The translations under genes were made by a program, and so were the position numbers. From Thermodesulfobacteriota bacterium (GTDB lineage Bacteria > Desulfobacterota > DSM-4660 > Desulfatiglandales > HGW-15): DNA of 5,765 bases. The stretch is from positions 1 to 5,765 of the forward strand of contig JALOPA010000165.1 in the NCBI GenBank assembly GCA_025454125.1, given 5' to 3'. Below the pieces are notes generated by a model. The model did not search any database. It was not told the DNA's origin and saw only the letters and a list, made by a program, of their open reading frames with translations. Below are positions 2-5,765 of this stretch, piece by piece; position 1 is the first letter of the stretch; every line of letters begins with the position of its first letter.

Positions 2-223
2 CAATTTGATTGGGCAATCATCACTTCCGGGCAGTACTTCGAATGGATCATATCGGGGGTCAAGATCACGCTGCAGCTGTCCGTGGTGTCGGTTGCCCTT
101 TCTTTTATTCTCGGGTTGATCATCGCCGTCATGCGCATGAGCCATATCCGGCCGGTTCTGTGGTTCTCCCACGCCTACCTTGAGTTTTTCCGCAACACCC
201 CGCTTCTGGTTCAGATCTTCTTC
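2..223 (+). other. Partial amino-acid ABC transporter permease (HisM/GlnP-like), N-terminal part only
   Basis: These 74 codons read as the start of a polar amino-acid ABC transporter inner-membrane permease. Visible marks are FDWAIITSGQYFEWIISG near the beginning, the ITLQLSVVSVALSFILGL membrane helix, the AVMRMS turn, and above all AYLEFFRNTPLLVQIFF, the strongly conserved EFFR-(G/N)-TPLLVQ block of the His/Glu/Gln permease family. In normal family members this block is followed by aromatic residues, further helices and the cytoplasmic EAA loop that docks the ATPase. Here the sequence switches to FliR directly after QIFF, so no transport channel could form. A bona fide FliR N-terminus has none of these motifs. 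Family recognition is from memory of the conserved block, not from a search. Confidence 0.85.
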
Positions 224-730
224 GAAGCGGTGAGCATGATGGGACAGGTGGCGGGTTTCCAGACCGGCTTTTCCATTACCAACATCATTGATCCGCAAAA
301 CGGGGTTCAGGTGTCCATCCTTTCCAATATGGCTTCCCTTGTGGCTCTTGCGCTGTTTCTGACCCTGGACGGTCACCACCTCTTCCTGCGGGCGATCAAG
401 GAGAGCTACGAGATTTTGCCCGTGGGAGGTCTTGCCCTGAAGGAGGAACCCCTCATGGAACTCATGAATCGAGCAGGGGAAATGTTCGTCCTCTCCATCA
501 AGATGGGCGCGCCGGTCATCGTGGGGCTCCTTTTCCTGCAGGCCGCTCTGGGTCTTCTCTCCAAGGCCATTCCCCAGATGAACGTGATGATTGTGGCGTT
601 TCCCCTGCAAATCGTCTTGGGACTTTTCTTTTTCGGCATCAGTCTCAAGGTGGTTCAGATGCTCACGGAGAAGTATCTCGCGGGCCTTGGCCCGCTGTTG
701 ATGAACACCATGGCGTGGATGAAAGGGTAG
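2..730 (+). CDS. fliR: Chimeric frame: ABC permease N-terminus joined in frame to FliR C-terminus (5' end outside window)
   Basis: FliR is a membrane subunit of the flagellar type III export gate, assembled with FliP and FliQ. The frame is open from the left edge, so 242 residues are visible and the true start lies upstream. The GTG at 83 falls inside a membrane helix with no ribosome binding site and is not a credible start. From base 224 (visible residue 75) the protein is clear FliR: EAVSMMGQVAGFQTGFS, then a DPQNGVQV loop, a FLTLDGHHLFLRAI helix, and PQMNVMIVAFPLQIVLGL near the end, with about three hydrophobic segments. The ~168 FliR residues match the last two thirds of a ~260-residue family; the first ~85-90 residues, carrying the early membrane helices, are absent. 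In their place is amino-acid ABC permease sequence. The frame ends 3 bases before flhB, its normal partner. The FliR identity of the 3' part is sure; whether this gene exists as shown in a living cell is doubtful. Confidence 0.85.
   Translation, partial: QFDWAIITSGQYFEWIISGVKITLQLSVVSVALSFILGLIIAVMRMSHIRPVLWFSHAYLEFFRNTPLLVQIFFEAVSMMGQVAGFQTGFSITNIIDPQNGVQVSILSNMASLVALALFLTLDGHHLFLRAIKESYEILPVGGLALKEEPLMELMNRAGEMFVLSIKMGAPVIVGLLFLQAALGLLSKAIPQMNVMIVAFPLQIVLGLFFFGISLKVVQMLTEKYLAGLGPLLMNTMAWMKG
722..727 (+). promoter_or_regulatory. Ribosome binding site of flhB
   Basis: AAAGGG lies six bases before the GTG at 734 and overlaps the last codons of the fliR frame. It supports the non-ATG start of flhB. 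Confidence 0.55.
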
Positions 731-733
731 AGC

Positions 734-1813
734 GTGGCGGACGAGAGTTTTGAAGAAAGAACCGAGAAGCCGACCCCGAAAAAGCGCGAAGAGGTGCGGC
801 AGAAGGGCGAGGTGGCCAAGACCCGGGAGCTGCCTGCTACCGCGGTCCTGCTGTCCGGGGCTCTGGCCCTGGCCGCCATGGGTTCTTTCACCTACCAGGA
901 GGTGTCGAGGATCACGACCCAGATCTTGTCCTTTTCCATCATCCGGGGAGACGGAGCGGGAGATCTGATGCTCCTCCTGGAGGACTGCGTGATCGCCTTG
1001 CTGCTGGCCCTGAGCCCTGTTCTCGCGGTGGTCTCTGTGACGGCCGTCCTCTCCAATGTGGCGCAGGTGGGGTTTGTCCTTTCGCTGGAAGCGCTGAAGC
1101 CGAAGTTCTCGAAAGTCAATCCGCTCAAGGGGCTGGAACGGCTTTTCTCAAAACAGTCTCTCATGGACCTCTTCAAGTCTCTGCTGAAGCTCCTCATCAT
1201 CGGCATCGTGGCCTACGGGAGCGTCGAGGAAGAGATGGGGGGCCTTGCCGACCTGGGGGACATGGAACCGGCCTCGGTGGCCCTTCACAGTCTTTCGAGT
1301 CTCTTCACGATCGTCCTCAAGTGCGGCCTGGCCATGATGGTCCTGGTGGCCCTGGATTACGCCTTCCAGAGATGGGAGTTTGAGAAGCGAATCCGCATGA
1401 CCCGGCAGGAGATCAAGGAGGAATTGAAGAGAAGTGAGGGAGATCCTCTGATCAAAGCTCGGGTCAAAAGCATTCAGAGAGAGATGGCACGCCGAAGGAT
1501 GATGCAGTCCGTGGCCAAGGCGGATGTGGTGATCACGAACCCGACCCATCTGGCCGTGGCCCTCTCCTATCAGGGCCCGAAGATGAACGCCCCGCAGCTC
1601 GTGGCCAAGGGCGCGGAAAAGGTGGCGGAGAAGATCAGGGAGGTGGCCAAGAGGCACGGGGTTCCCATCGTGGAGAACAAGAAGCTCGCTCAAAGCCTCT
1701 ACACCATGGTGGATCTGGGCCAGGAAATCCCGGGGACCCTTTATCAGGCCGTGGCCGAGATCCTGGCCTATGTCTATCGGCTGAAGGGCCGCCTTTATCA
1801 CAGTAAGCAGTAG
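734..1813 (+). CDS. flhB: FlhB, flagellar type III export switch protein
   Basis: FlhB is an inner-membrane export-gate protein whose cytosolic domain cleaves itself and switches export from rod/hook to filament substrates. The 359 residues match the usual family length. The N-terminus has the typical EERTEKPTPKKREEVRQKGE stretch, followed by four hydrophobic segments at roughly residues 33-53, 84-112, 145-162 and 187-209. A charged linker (about 213-258) leads to the autocleavage motif NPTH at 269-272 (bases 1538-1549), within VVITNPTHLAVALSY. The C-terminal domain ends in ...ILAYVYRLKGRLYHSKQ. The GTG start at 734 is supported by the conserved N-terminus and by AAAGGG at 722-727, six bases upstream. 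It begins 3 bases after the fliR stop, which suggests translational coupling. The last three codons and the stop lie inside a palindromic repeat, so the extreme C-terminus may have been altered by that element. Confidence 0.97.
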   Translation: MADESFEERTEKPTPKKREEVRQKGEVAKTRELPATAVLLSGALALAAMGSFTYQEVSRITTQILSFSIIRGDGAGDLMLLLEDCVIALLLALSPVLAVVSVTAVLSNVAQVGFVLSLEALKPKFSKVNPLKGLERLFSKQSLMDLFKSLLKLLIIGIVAYGSVEEEMGGLADLGDMEPASVALHSLSSLFTIVLKCGLAMMVLVALDYAFQRWEFEKRIRMTRQEIKEELKRSEGDPLIKARVKSIQREMARRRMMQSVAKADVVITNPTHLAVALSYQGPKMNAPQLVAKGAEKVAEKIREVAKRHGVPIVENKKLAQSLYTMVDLGQEIPGTLYQAVAEILAYVYRLKGRLYHSKQ

Positions 1814-1850
1814 GCAGTATTCTTAGGTGCATACTCCCTACTGCTTACTG
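1801..1850. repeat. Heptad-based palindrome with 20-bp arms at the end of flhB
   Basis: Arms at 1801-1820 and 1831-1850 pair over 20 positions with a single mismatch (C1815 against C1836), leaving the 10-base loop TCTTAGGTGC. Each arm is made of 7-base units: left CAGTAAG, CAGTAGG, CAGTATT. The right arm read on the - strand is CAGTAAG, CAGTAGG, GAGTATG, with a further related unit, CAGAAGG, just outside at 1851-1857. The flhB stop (1811-1813) lies inside the left arm. No T-run follows, so it is not a classical intrinsic terminator. It could be a mobile or expandable intergenic palindrome, an mRNA-stabilising hairpin between flhB and flhA, or a partial attenuator. The geometry is directly visible; the role is inference. 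Confidence 0.85.
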
Positions 1851-1898
1851 CCTTCTGAAGGCTTTGGGGGTCAAGGTCCATTGAGTAGAAGAAAGGGT

Positions 1899-1915: not shown

Positions 1916-4012
1916 GTGGCGTCAACGGTGAGACAGGAAGCCCTGGACTTGAAGTCCGGGCCCTTTCAGACCAGCGAGGTGATCGCCGTGGTCGGGGTGA
2001 TGATGGTGCTGGCGGTCATGATCGTCCCCCTCCCGGCCATTCTCCTGGATTTCTTCCTGGCCCTTAACATCACCGTGGCTGTCATCATTCTCCTGATCTC
2101 CCTGTACACTCTGAAGCCTTTGGACTTTTCCATCTTTCCCTCCCTCCTCCTGATCACCACGCTGTTCAGGCTTTCCCTCAATGTGGCGTCCACGCGGCTG
2201 ATCCTTCTGCACGGCAACGAGGGCATTTCCGCCGCCGGAAAAGTGATCCAGTCCTTCGGGAGCTTTGTTGTGGGCGGCAACTACGTTGTGGGCACCATTG
2301 TCTTCATCATCCTGATCCTCGTCAATTTCGTGGTGATCACCAAAGGCGCCACGCGGATTGCGGAGGTGGCGGCCCGGTTCACTCTGGATGCCATGCCCGG
2401 CAAGCAGATGAGCATTGACGCGGACCTCAACGCCGGTCTCATCGACGAGGCGGAAGCCAAGTCTCGAAGGGCAAGGATCTCCAGAGAGGCTGATTTCTAC
2501 GGAGCCATGGACGGTGCGGCCAAGTTTGTCAGAGGGGACGCCATTGCGGGTATCCTCATCGTGCTGGTCAACATTTTCGGGGGGTTCATCATCGGCGTTC
2601 TCCAGAAAAACATGGCTCTCCTGGAAGCGGCGCAGAATTACACCCTGCTCACCGTCGGCGACGGTCTGGTCACCCAGATCCCCGCTCTCACCATCTCTAC
2701 GGCGGCAGGTATCGTGGTGAGCAGGACCGCTTCAGAGGACACGATGGGCAAAGAACTGGGCCGGCAGTTCGCGAGATACCCCAAAGCCGTGTACCTGGCC
2801 AGCCTCACCATTTTCATTTTCGGCCTGATCCCAGGGCTGCCCCACATTCCCTTCATGGCCCTGGCCATGGTCCTCGCCGGAAGCGCTTACCTGGCGACCC
2901 GCGAGCAAGCCGTCGACAAAGGCAAAGAAGGCGGCAAGGGGAAGGAACAGGAGCCGGGGCCGGGGCCGGAACCCGTGGAGCATCTCCTCGTTGTGGACCC
3001 TCTTGAGGTGGAGGTGGGCTACGGACTTCTCTCTCTGGTCGACAAGGAACAGGGCGGAGAGTTCCTCGACCGGGTCCGATCCATCCGGCGCCATTTTGCC
3101 GTGAACATGGGCATGGTGGTGCCTCCCATCCACATCAGGGACAATCTGCAACTCAAGCCCAGCAAGTATCAGATCCTGCTGAAGGGGGTGAAAATCGGGG
3201 AAGGAGATCTCATGGTGAACCACTTTCTGGCCATGGACCCAGGGGACGTCAAAACCAGGATGGAGGGCATTGAAACCGAAGAGCCCGCTTTCCATCTCCC
3301 CGCTTTGTGGATTCCGGAAAGAAAACGGGACGAAGCCCGCCTGGCCGGGTACACGGTGGTCGACAATGTGACGGTCATGTCCACCCATTTGAGCGAAGTG
3401 CTCAAGAAACACGGAGCCGAGCTCCTGGGCAGACAGGAGGTGCAGAACCTACTCGACCACCTGAGCAGGTCCTATCCCAAGGCGGTGGAAGAACTGGTTC
3501 CCAACCTCCTGCCTCTCGGGATCGTCCAAAAAGTCCTGCAGAGTCTGCTTCGAGAGCAGGTGTGCATACGGGACATGCTGACCATCGTGGAGAGCCTTGC
3601 CGACTACGCCTCCCTGACGAAAGATCCGGATCTGCTCACGGAATACGTCCGGCATCGGCTTGCGAGATCCTTCATCAGCCCCCATGTGGATGAGGCAGGG
3701 GTCCTGAATCTGTTCACGTTGAACCAGGAGGTGGAAGACACCCTTGTGCGGGGAATCCACAAGACGGAGCACGGCACCTACCTGTCCGTCGAGCCCGGCA
3801 TTGCGGATGCTCTGGTGAGGTCCATCAAGAAAACGGCCGAGACGGCCATGGTGAAAAACCTCCAGCCTATCCTGGTCACCTCTCCTCAGCTGCGAAGGCA
3901 TCTCAAGAAAATGGTGGAGCATTTTGTTCCGTCCCTCATGGTGCTGTCCCAGACAGAACTGTTGAGCGACATGAAATTCAAGTCTATGGGCGAGGTGAAA
4001 TTGAATGGCTGA
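1916..4012 (+). CDS. flhA: FlhA, flagellar type III export gate protein (FHIPEP family)
   Basis: FlhA forms the ring under the flagellar export gate; its membrane part works with the proton motive force and its cytosolic part docks chaperone-substrate complexes. The 698 residues match the usual ~690-700. The N-terminal ~325 residues contain about eight hydrophobic segments. The family signature FRLSLNVASTRLIL is at 84-97, and the conserved cytoplasmic loop RFTLDAMPGKQMSIDADLNAG is at about 154-174. VRGDAIAGI at 205-213 carries the conserved Asp at 208, the position reported as functionally important in Salmonella FlhA. A charged, Gly/Pro-rich linker (about 329-355, KGKEGGKGKEQEPGPGPEP) leads to the cytosolic domain, about 356-690. 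Start choice rests on the strong Shine-Dalgarno sequence. The gene follows flhB by 102 bases and overlaps flhF by 8. It appears intact. Confidence 0.98.
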   Translation: MASTVRQEALDLKSGPFQTSEVIAVVGVMMVLAVMIVPLPAILLDFFLALNITVAVIILLISLYTLKPLDFSIFPSLLLITTLFRLSLNVASTRLILLHGNEGISAAGKVIQSFGSFVVGGNYVVGTIVFIILILVNFVVITKGATRIAEVAARFTLDAMPGKQMSIDADLNAGLIDEAEAKSRRARISREADFYGAMDGAAKFVRGDAIAGILIVLVNIFGGFIIGVLQKNMALLEAAQNYTLLTVGDGLVTQIPALTISTAAGIVVSRTASEDTMGKELGRQFARYPKAVYLASLTIFIFGLIPGLPHIPFMALAMVLAGSAYLATREQAVDKGKEGGKGKEQEPGPGPEPVEHLLVVDPLEVEVGYGLLSLVDKEQGGEFLDRVRSIRRHFAVNMGMVVPPIHIRDNLQLKPSKYQILLKGVKIGEGDLMVNHFLAMDPGDVKTRMEGIETEEPAFHLPALWIPERKRDEARLAGYTVVDNVTVMSTHLSEVLKKHGAELLGRQEVQNLLDHLSRSYPKAVEELVPNLLPLGIVQKVLQSLLREQVCIRDMLTIVESLADYASLTKDPDLLTEYVRHRLARSFISPHVDEAGVLNLFTLNQEVEDTLVRGIHKTEHGTYLSVEPGIADALVRSIKKTAETAMVKNLQPILVTSPQLRRHLKKMVEHFVPSLMVLSQTELLSDMKFKSMGEVKLNG

Positions 4013-5057
4013 GCCTAGAAGCTTCAAAGGAAGAACCATTGCTGAAGTCATGGAAAGGATCCGGGGAGATCTCGGACCCGAGGCGATGATCCTGTCCACG
4101 CAAAGAGGCCAGGGGCGGGACGGGCTTTTTGAAATCACGGCGCTGCCCGACGGCCGTGACAAACCCGCGGCCGGCCCGGAGGTGCTCGGGGAGCTGAAGT
4201 CGGAGCTCATGAGCCTCAGGGAAATGATCCTTCTCCTGAATCATTCCGGAGGCGTGGTGGAACGCCTGCTGGCCAACCCGGGACTCCTTTCCCTGTATGC
4301 CGCATTGATCCGGAACGGCGTGAACGCGGATTCGGCCCGTTCTTTGCTGGAGAGAGGGGGCGCCCTCGGGGACGGGGCGGGCGGCAGCGCGTCCGTCGCG
4401 AAAAAGAAGGTCCTCCAGGAGTTGGCAACGGCCGTGGAAGTGAAGGACCCTTTTGAGTCCAATCCGGGTGGCCCGGTCCTCGCAGCCTTCTTAGGGACCA
4501 CCGGCGTAGGAAAAACCACGACGGTGGCCAAACTGGCCGCGCGGTTCATGCTCAGGGCGAAGAAAAAGGTGGGACTCGTGTCCATTGACGGGTATCGAAT
4601 CGGTGCCATGGAACAGCTGAGAATCTATGCCAACATTCTCGGCATTCCCTGTTTTCCAGCCTTCTGTCGAAAGGACCTGCTCTATGCGCTGCGCAAGTTG
4701 TCCAACAGGGATGTGGTCCTCATCGACACGGCCGGTCAGAGCCACTACGACAGACAGCGGATCGACGCCCTGAGGGGGTTGATCCCTGCAGAGGCTCCGG
4801 TGGACTGTCACCTCCTCCTTCCTGTGGGAACCTCGGATGGAGAGATGGATCAGGCGGTCCGCAGCTTCAAGGCCTTTAGTCTAAAGAGCTACATTTTCAC
4901 GAAACTGGATGAATGTCAGAGGCGCGGTTCCATGCTCAATCAGCTCCTCAGGTTTCCGCTTCCTGTGTCCTATGTGACCACGGGGCAGAACGTGCCTGAA
5001 GACATTGAGAGGGCGGACAAGAGGAAGCTCCTGAATCTCATTCTGAACGGAAACTAG
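4005..5057 (+). CDS. flhF: FlhF, SRP-family GTPase for flagellar placement
   Basis: FlhF is a relative of Ffh and FtsY that recruits early flagellar parts to the correct, often polar, site; its GTPase is stimulated by FlhG. The N-terminus (1-47) has the FlhF-specific pattern SFKGRTIAEVMERIRGDLGPEAMILST...GLFEITA. A helical, variable region follows (about 60-150), then the GTPase domain. The P-loop is GTTGVGKTT at 164-172. The SRP-type DGYRIGAMEQL is at 195-205, DTAGQS at 241-246, TKLDE at 299-303 and the closing TTGQNVPEDIE at 325-335. At 350 residues it is on the short side for FlhF, mainly because the middle region is small. The third motif reads DTAGQ rather than the DTAGR common in SRP GTPases, but this position varies among FlhF proteins as I recall them. 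The ATG lies within the end of flhA, with GAGGTG at 3992-3997 as a plausible ribosome binding site. Confidence 0.97.
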   Translation: MAEPRSFKGRTIAEVMERIRGDLGPEAMILSTQRGQGRDGLFEITALPDGRDKPAAGPEVLGELKSELMSLREMILLLNHSGGVVERLLANPGLLSLYAALIRNGVNADSARSLLERGGALGDGAGGSASVAKKKVLQELATAVEVKDPFESNPGGPVLAAFLGTTGVGKTTTVAKLAARFMLRAKKKVGLVSIDGYRIGAMEQLRIYANILGIPCFPAFCRKDLLYALRKLSNRDVVLIDTAGQSHYDRQRIDALRGLIPAEAPVDCHLLLPVGTSDGEMDQAVRSFKAFSLKSYIFTKLDECQRRGSMLNQLLRFPLPVSYVTTGQNVPEDIERADKRKLLNLILNGN

Positions 5058-5082: not shown

Positions 5083-5765
5083 ATGGATCAGGCGACGGAA
5101 TTGAGAAAACTCGTATCCCTGGAGTGTGAGCAGAGCCGCAGACGCCGGCCCAGGAGGCCCACAAGCGACTTGGAAACCGGTTGCCCCCCAAGGGTCTTTG
5201 CCGTGACGAGCGGAAAAGGCGGAGTGGGGAAAACCAATGTGGTGGGAAACCTCGCCATTGCGTGCCAGCGCATGGGCAAGAAGGTCCTGGTGCTGGATGC
5301 GGACCTGGGCCTTGCAAACCTGGACATCATCTTCGGCATCAATCCCCAGCACAACATCGGGGAGACCATCCGCGGGGAAAGGGACCTCTCCACGATCATT
5401 GCCGAGGGGCCGGAAGGAGTGGCGGTGATTCCCGCTTCGTCAGGAGTCCAGGAACTGGCTCACCTCAGCGAAGGGCAGAAGGTCAATCTCCTGAGCGAAT
5501 TCGACGGGCTCAACAAGAGCTTCGATCTTCTTCTGATTGACACAGGGGCGGGCATCTCCTCCAATGTGATCTTTTTCAATCTGGCCGCCGAGGAGCGCAT
5601 CCTTGTGATCACACCGGAGCCGACCTCCATCACGGACGCCTACGCTCTCATGAAAGTCCTTTTCTTCAATCACGGGATCAAGGACTTTCTGCTCCTGTCC
5701 AACATGGTCCAGGACGAGAGCCCGGGCCGGAAGGTCTATGACACTCTGAGCCGGGTGGTGGCCAA
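5083..5765 (+). CDS. flhG: FlhG/FleN (YlxH), MinD-like ATPase controlling flagellar number, 3' end outside window
   Basis: FlhG is a ParA/MinD-family ATPase that limits flagellar number and activates FlhF. The visible 227 codons plus two bases (5764-5765) continue past the right edge. Residues 2-8, DQATELR, match the DQAxxLR activator motif known from FlhG, which inserts into the FlhF dimer. An arginine-rich stretch follows (RRRRPRRP, about 19-26). Next comes the deviant Walker A SGKGGVGKT at 43-51, with signature lysine K45 and K50. VLVLDADLGLANLDI is at 68-82, the Walker B region LLLIDTGAGIS at 149-159, and PEPTSITDAYALMK at 178-191. The C-terminal amphipathic membrane-targeting helix would lie beyond the window. 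The start is chosen because the activator motif begins directly after Met; AAGGA at 5074-5078 is a short-spaced ribosome binding site. The gap to flhF is 25 bases, consistent with one operon. Confidence 0.95.
   Translation, partial: MDQATELRKLVSLECEQSRRRRPRRPTSDLETGCPPRVFAVTSGKGGVGKTNVVGNLAIACQRMGKKVLVLDADLGLANLDIIFGINPQHNIGETIRGERDLSTIIAEGPEGVAVIPASSGVQELAHLSEGQKVNLLSEFDGLNKSFDLLLIDTGAGISSNVIFFNLAAEERILVITPEPTSITDAYALMKVLFFNHGIKDFLLLSNMVQDESPGRKVYDTLSRVVA

Follow-up and report, generated by a model that had tools for sequence, protein, structure and literature searches.

The window analysed here, a 5,765-nucleotide stretch of a Thermodesulfobacteriota contig, opens with a reading frame that joins the N-terminal part of an amino-acid ABC transporter permease to the C-terminal part of the flagellar protein FliR, and this join is best explained, with a probability of roughly 85%, as an artefact: a chimera formed at the stretch encoding LVQIFF during amplification or assembly. 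The frame lies at 2–730 on the + strand, is open throughout, and comprises two unrelated parts, permease residues 5–78 followed by the whole of FliR beyond residue 92. Positions 2–205 (+) encode an N-terminal portion of an ABC transporter permease of the polar amino-acid type (permease residues 5–72; TIGR01726, P0124). Positions 206–223 (+) are the join zone, LVQIFF, which is present in both parent families (LLVQIFF/WYFG in the permease and GFLVQIFF/EAV in FliR, the stroke marking the join), and positions 224–730 (+) encode the C-terminal part of fliR, namely residues 93–260 of the 260-residue protein plus the stop codon (PF01311, P0001).

A sequence-only reading of this DNA had described an in-frame switch between the two families and had advised separate searches with residues 1–74 and 75–242; these searches confirm the switch. 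Residues 1–74 (window 2–223) match the NCBIfam model TIGR01726 above its cut-off (E 4.6e-18), along with nine further amino-acid permease models (seven equivalog and two subfamily models), all below their cut-offs. None of the FliR models matched these residues at E ≤ 0.001, and the notion that they might resemble FliR more than permeases thus falls away. Residues 75–242 match Pfam FliR PF01311 (E 6.1e-43, profile positions 80–227 of 230) and TIGR01400 fliR (E 5.7e-39), the latter over profile positions 76–235 of 245 with a score of 141 bits, below the curated cut-off of 168.6. The permease relatives are of the 235-residue polar amino-acid type (TIGR01726, PF00528) and are 86–95% identical over all 74 residues (best 120 of 1,097 matches); an identical, unjoined permease parent was sought and only relatives were found, with P0124 identical to window 2–223 at 70 of 74 residues. 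Contrary to a frame of two families, model NF009411 aligns to the whole frame from residue 29, and the distant FliR loci L016–L018 align from frame residue 26 at 33–34% identity. Both alignments are read as weak extensions, because 70 of the 74 residues are identical to those of a permease. NF009411 is a fused FliR/FlhB, and FliR therefore does occur within a fused frame in some bacteria, as it does at 2–730; in that model, however, FlhB is fused behind FliR (judging by model name and length), whereas fliR and flhB of the window are separate frames. The permease part at 2–205 is foreign to the flagellar operon.

Frame residues 69–242 correspond to FliR residues 87–260 and are identical to P0001, the N-terminal 86 residues of FliR being replaced in frame 2–730. 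The initial estimate that FliR had lost its first ~85–90 residues is thus borne out, with residues 1–86 missing and residues 87–92 forming the shared word. The remaining 157 residues of the permease P0124 (79–235) are also missing, and with them most of the PF00528 domain, which spans 39–228 in P0124; a search for PF00528 in residues 1–74 and in the whole frame gave no match, and no complete transport domain was found. These losses, which for FliR amount to a third of its length, weigh against a real fusion protein, maintained by selection, whose permease N terminus stands in for that of FliR, as does the finding that solved FliR structures match the intact FliR P0002 from residue 13 onwards. 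An open frame and an in-frame join are in keeping with such a protein; nevertheless, no relative with the fusion appeared in protein, viral-contig, or plasmid searches, and we consider a functional fusion very improbable.

These searches were approached from several sides. With the whole frame as query, 7,999 candidates were scored and 1,193 proteins matched; no join-spanning protein was found among the 120 listed of these 1,193 FliR matches, in which the best cover was 72%. With the permease part, 1,097 of 1,117 candidates matched, and PF00528 was present in all 120 among the matches listed. A join-centred search (residues 48–100) matched 393 of 487 candidates, and the 120 listed included no spanning protein; its top score, 58 bits, belonged to P0241, a one-sided FliR match covering 60% of the region, and a true spanning protein would be expected to score well above this. 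P0008, a FliR, covers 92% of the join region, yet its identity is 63% and its N terminus is that of an ordinary FliR. Marker words of both sides were found together in none of 282 proteins. Although 210 plasmid records match the frame, none covers at least 80% of it, and in viral contigs three stretches fit a pattern, none of them a relative. A fusion kept by selection was thus sought by the whole frame, the permease part, and the join region, and in viral contigs and plasmids, and was rejected as not found; nor did the protein searches made show it to be shared between lineages. The presence of the same join in relatives, which the sequence-only reading had named as one observation that would speak against an artefact, was accordingly not seen.

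Irregular ends were observed in two FliR relatives. The JGI protein P0241 ends in RSEERRVGKEC, the peptide that an Illumina adapter encodes; its end is another artefact in a FliR frame from the same kind of data. P0242 ceases to resemble the family beyond about residue 170, which on visual inspection looks like a frameshift.

The FliR parent is known in unjoined form. P0001, a JGI protein of 205 residues, is identical to the window throughout LVQIFF and all that follows it (174 of 174 residues), and the 31 residues ahead of LVQIFF are those of an ordinary FliR, beginning at residue 56 of the 260-residue form; its longest contig is 2,838 bases. P0002, a complete FliR of 260 residues, is identical to the window at 173 of 174 residues from LVQIFF onwards. 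Both proteins show this FliR sequence without the join, and it is thus normally part of an ordinary fliR. An artefact had been ranked ahead of a deletion, and a deletion ahead of a functional fusion, and the unjoined P0001, identical at 174 of 174 residues, together with the lack of any join-spanning protein in the searches, supports that order.

The same identity tells against a real deletion or rearrangement in a minority strain, by which slipped mispairing between co-oriented short direct repeats in the permease gene and fliR would have removed all the DNA between the repeats, with fliP, fliQ, and the 5′ end of fliR, leaving a non-flagellated strain. Short direct repeats of such length are known deletion endpoints, and this lends the deletion some plausibility. 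It requires, however, that both genes lie in one genome, co-oriented, and with nothing essential between them; a co-oriented pair of this kind did not appear in the relatives searched, and overall we regard the deletion as unlikely. Somewhat less likely again is the fuller version, in which a deletion in a living subpopulation would have made the permease–FliR fusion, placed flhB-flhA-flhF under the transporter promoter, and abolished flagellar export. Were it true, the window would hold a snapshot of motility loss through a short direct repeat, and thus of one route by which the flagellum is lost.

Gene order in relatives also bears on the join. In the only two relatives checked, L002 and L005, fliP, fliQ, fliR, and flhB stand in a row, in agreement with the earlier remark that fliP and fliQ usually lie ahead of fliR. 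The 74-residue permease piece had no match (tblastn, E ≤ 1e-3) in the flagellar loci of 19 relatives, whose sequence ahead of flhB ranges from 0.3 to 10 kb and is short in some, and this speaks for the chimera and against the deletion. Permease matches in the nine genomes behind L001–L007, L012, and L013 reach at most 42% identity.

The two parents also keep apart at the level of whole genomes. In the phylum draw (phylum of G002), a close permease (E ≤ 1e-70) is present in 23 of 395 genomes, in 18 of them at 74–82% identity, and the three genomes of the draw whose FliR is closest (G002, G005, and G321) are not among the 23. Within the class of G002, FliR is found in 12 of 85 genomes and the permease in none of the 85 (both at E ≤ 1e-60). 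In the class of G001, FliR is found in 3 of 241 genomes (E ≤ 1e-80) and the permease in 9, the best being 57% identical; none of the three best FliR genomes is among these nine. FliR was likewise absent at E ≤ 1e-80 from two permease-bearing classes, those of G297 (0 of 26 genomes) and G296 (0 of 195), and the queries that came back empty in the sets for the classes of G002, G297, and G296 did match in other genome sets. FliR relatives in the classes of G002 and G001 show 49–56% identity, 56% being the best found. Because none of the searched genomes combines the closest FliR with the closest permease, a different organism for each parent is tentatively suggested, and the deletion, which needs both genes in one genome, loses ground accordingly.

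Composition gives the deletion some support. The GC content at third codon positions is nearly equal on the two sides of the join (0.757 in the permease part and 0.744 in the FliR part), and overall GC is 0.527 in the permease part, 0.556 in the FliR part, and 0.598 in flhB; a compositional break across the join was sought by GC, and the values do not clearly point to two organisms. The join itself lies some 205–220 bases from the left end of the window, a position that speaks for the chimera; this left end may or may not be the end of the contig.

The genes downstream are ordinary. The full frame of flhB lies at 734–1813 (+; PF01312, E 1.4e-127; TIGR00328 above cut-off), that of flhA at 1916–4012 (+; PF00771, E 2.7e-279; TIGR01398 above cut-off), and that of flhF at 4005–5057 (+; PF00448; TIGR03499 above cut-off), followed at 5083–5763 (+) by a fleN/flhG-like gene for a MinD-type ATPase (PF13614, PF10609) that is cut by the window end. 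This order of flhB, flhA, flhF, and the fleN-like gene is the order in L002, L003, and L005, in which a MinD-type ATPase gene likewise follows flhF. The four downstream frames contain no stop or break, so any loss of the kind required by the deletion would have to be recent, which counts further against it.

An inverted repeat, CAGTAAGCAGTAGGCAGTAT / ATACTCCCTACTGCTTACTG, is present at window 1801–1850, with 20-nt arms that are 95% complementary; it overlaps the flhB stop and sits in the flhB–flhA gap. The RNA fold of window 1790–1865 has an energy of −37.4 kcal/mol (z −7.3), and the repeat at 1801–1850 has no match in Rfam. A similar repeat word, GGCAGTAGGGAGTAAGCAGTAGGCAGTA, occurs with a diverged copy in the fliQ–fliR gap at 9142–9169 of L003 and at 9142–9169 of L002. 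An 11-base core of the repeat has exact matches in only two loci out of 79, which belong to one and the same genome, and this is possibly a dispersed repeat residing in the gaps of flagellar operons.

The position of the join within the two parents is the remaining line of evidence. Eight aligned permeases read EFFRNTPLLVQIFF/WYFGSYK at this point, and LLVQIFF occupies the join site in 158 of 158 proteins containing both WYFG and LVQ (159 proteins contain WYFG, and the one that lacks LVQ was dropped). The closest FliR proteins, P0001–P0004 and P0007, read GFLVQIFF/EAVSMMG, and others read LVQLFF or MVQVFF; exact LVQIFF is found in 29 of 123 non-permease proteins and is therefore common in FliR, albeit not universal. 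The expectation that the sequence at the join would be plausible in both families thus holds. The shared sequence had been given as TTCTTC at 218–223; that placement of the switch stands, but its extent does not, the shared part being the six codons of LVQIFF at 206–223.

LVQIFF is the sole six-residue word common to the surrogate parents P0124 and P0002, and of 10,000 shuffles of P0002, 69 share a word of at least six residues with P0124. The pair offers 61,100 possible join points, and seven of these lie inside LVQIFF. A join inside the only shared six-residue word (7 of 61,100 points) is not randomly placed, and from the sequence its placement looks guided by the shared stretch. At the DNA level, the run shared by both parents at the join would be at most 20 nt (204–223), because Phe precedes LVQIFF in the P0001 FliR (the window has CTT) and Trp follows it in the permeases. 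The 18 bases of the window at LVQIFF match those of permease relatives at 14–17 positions (10 sites) and those of more distant FliR relatives at 9–16 positions (18 sites, among which G002 and G005 each enter twice). Between surrogate pairs, the longest shared DNA run is 15 nt at best, with a median of 5 (180 pairs), these being relatives and not the true parents; the surrogate sites were picked by peptide pattern and the others dropped, including 2 of the 12 permease loci L059–L070.

A run of this length is of consequence for both the deletion and the chimera. The smallest k in use in common short-read assemblers is 21, and a shared run of at most 20 nt thus falls below the usual assembly k-mers; this favours a join already present in the DNA, as the deletion would have it, and equally makes a pure k-mer misjoin less likely, such that a chimeric read or insert would be needed. 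A chimeric origin would proceed as follows. Part of a permease gene, probably contributed by a second organism in the same sample, would have been attached to a flagellar sequence at its fliR end, by way of the short stretch that codes for LVQIFF in both genes; we infer this foreign origin, the exact step, and that the parents' DNA was identical there. The step was likely template switching or mispriming while the DNA was amplified, or else an overlap wrongly made by the assembler, and likeliest of all would be a chimeric DNA molecule or read that arose by strand switching and was then carried into the assembled sequence. The result would be in frame because both genes use the LVQIFF stretch in the same frame. 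In a passage of PMC5553932 that cites Lasken and Stockwell (2007), amplification chimeras are described as having overlaps of 2–21 nt, with a peak at 5.

The join resembles the template-switching chimeras of multiple displacement amplification (MDA) and PCR in that unrelated genes are joined at a short shared stretch near one end and one parent is known unjoined, although the likeness is drawn from parents at the protein level and from surrogate DNA only. Parents of unrelated families meet at the shared stretch LVQIFF, as seen at the protein level, and P0001 supplies, on the FliR side, an unjoined parent of identical sequence.

As a probable chimera, the LVQIFF join illustrates cleanly how a short protein word common to two families can yield an in-frame, convincing, and probably false fusion gene, and it carries the warning that database frames of this kind should not be counted as new domain architectures.
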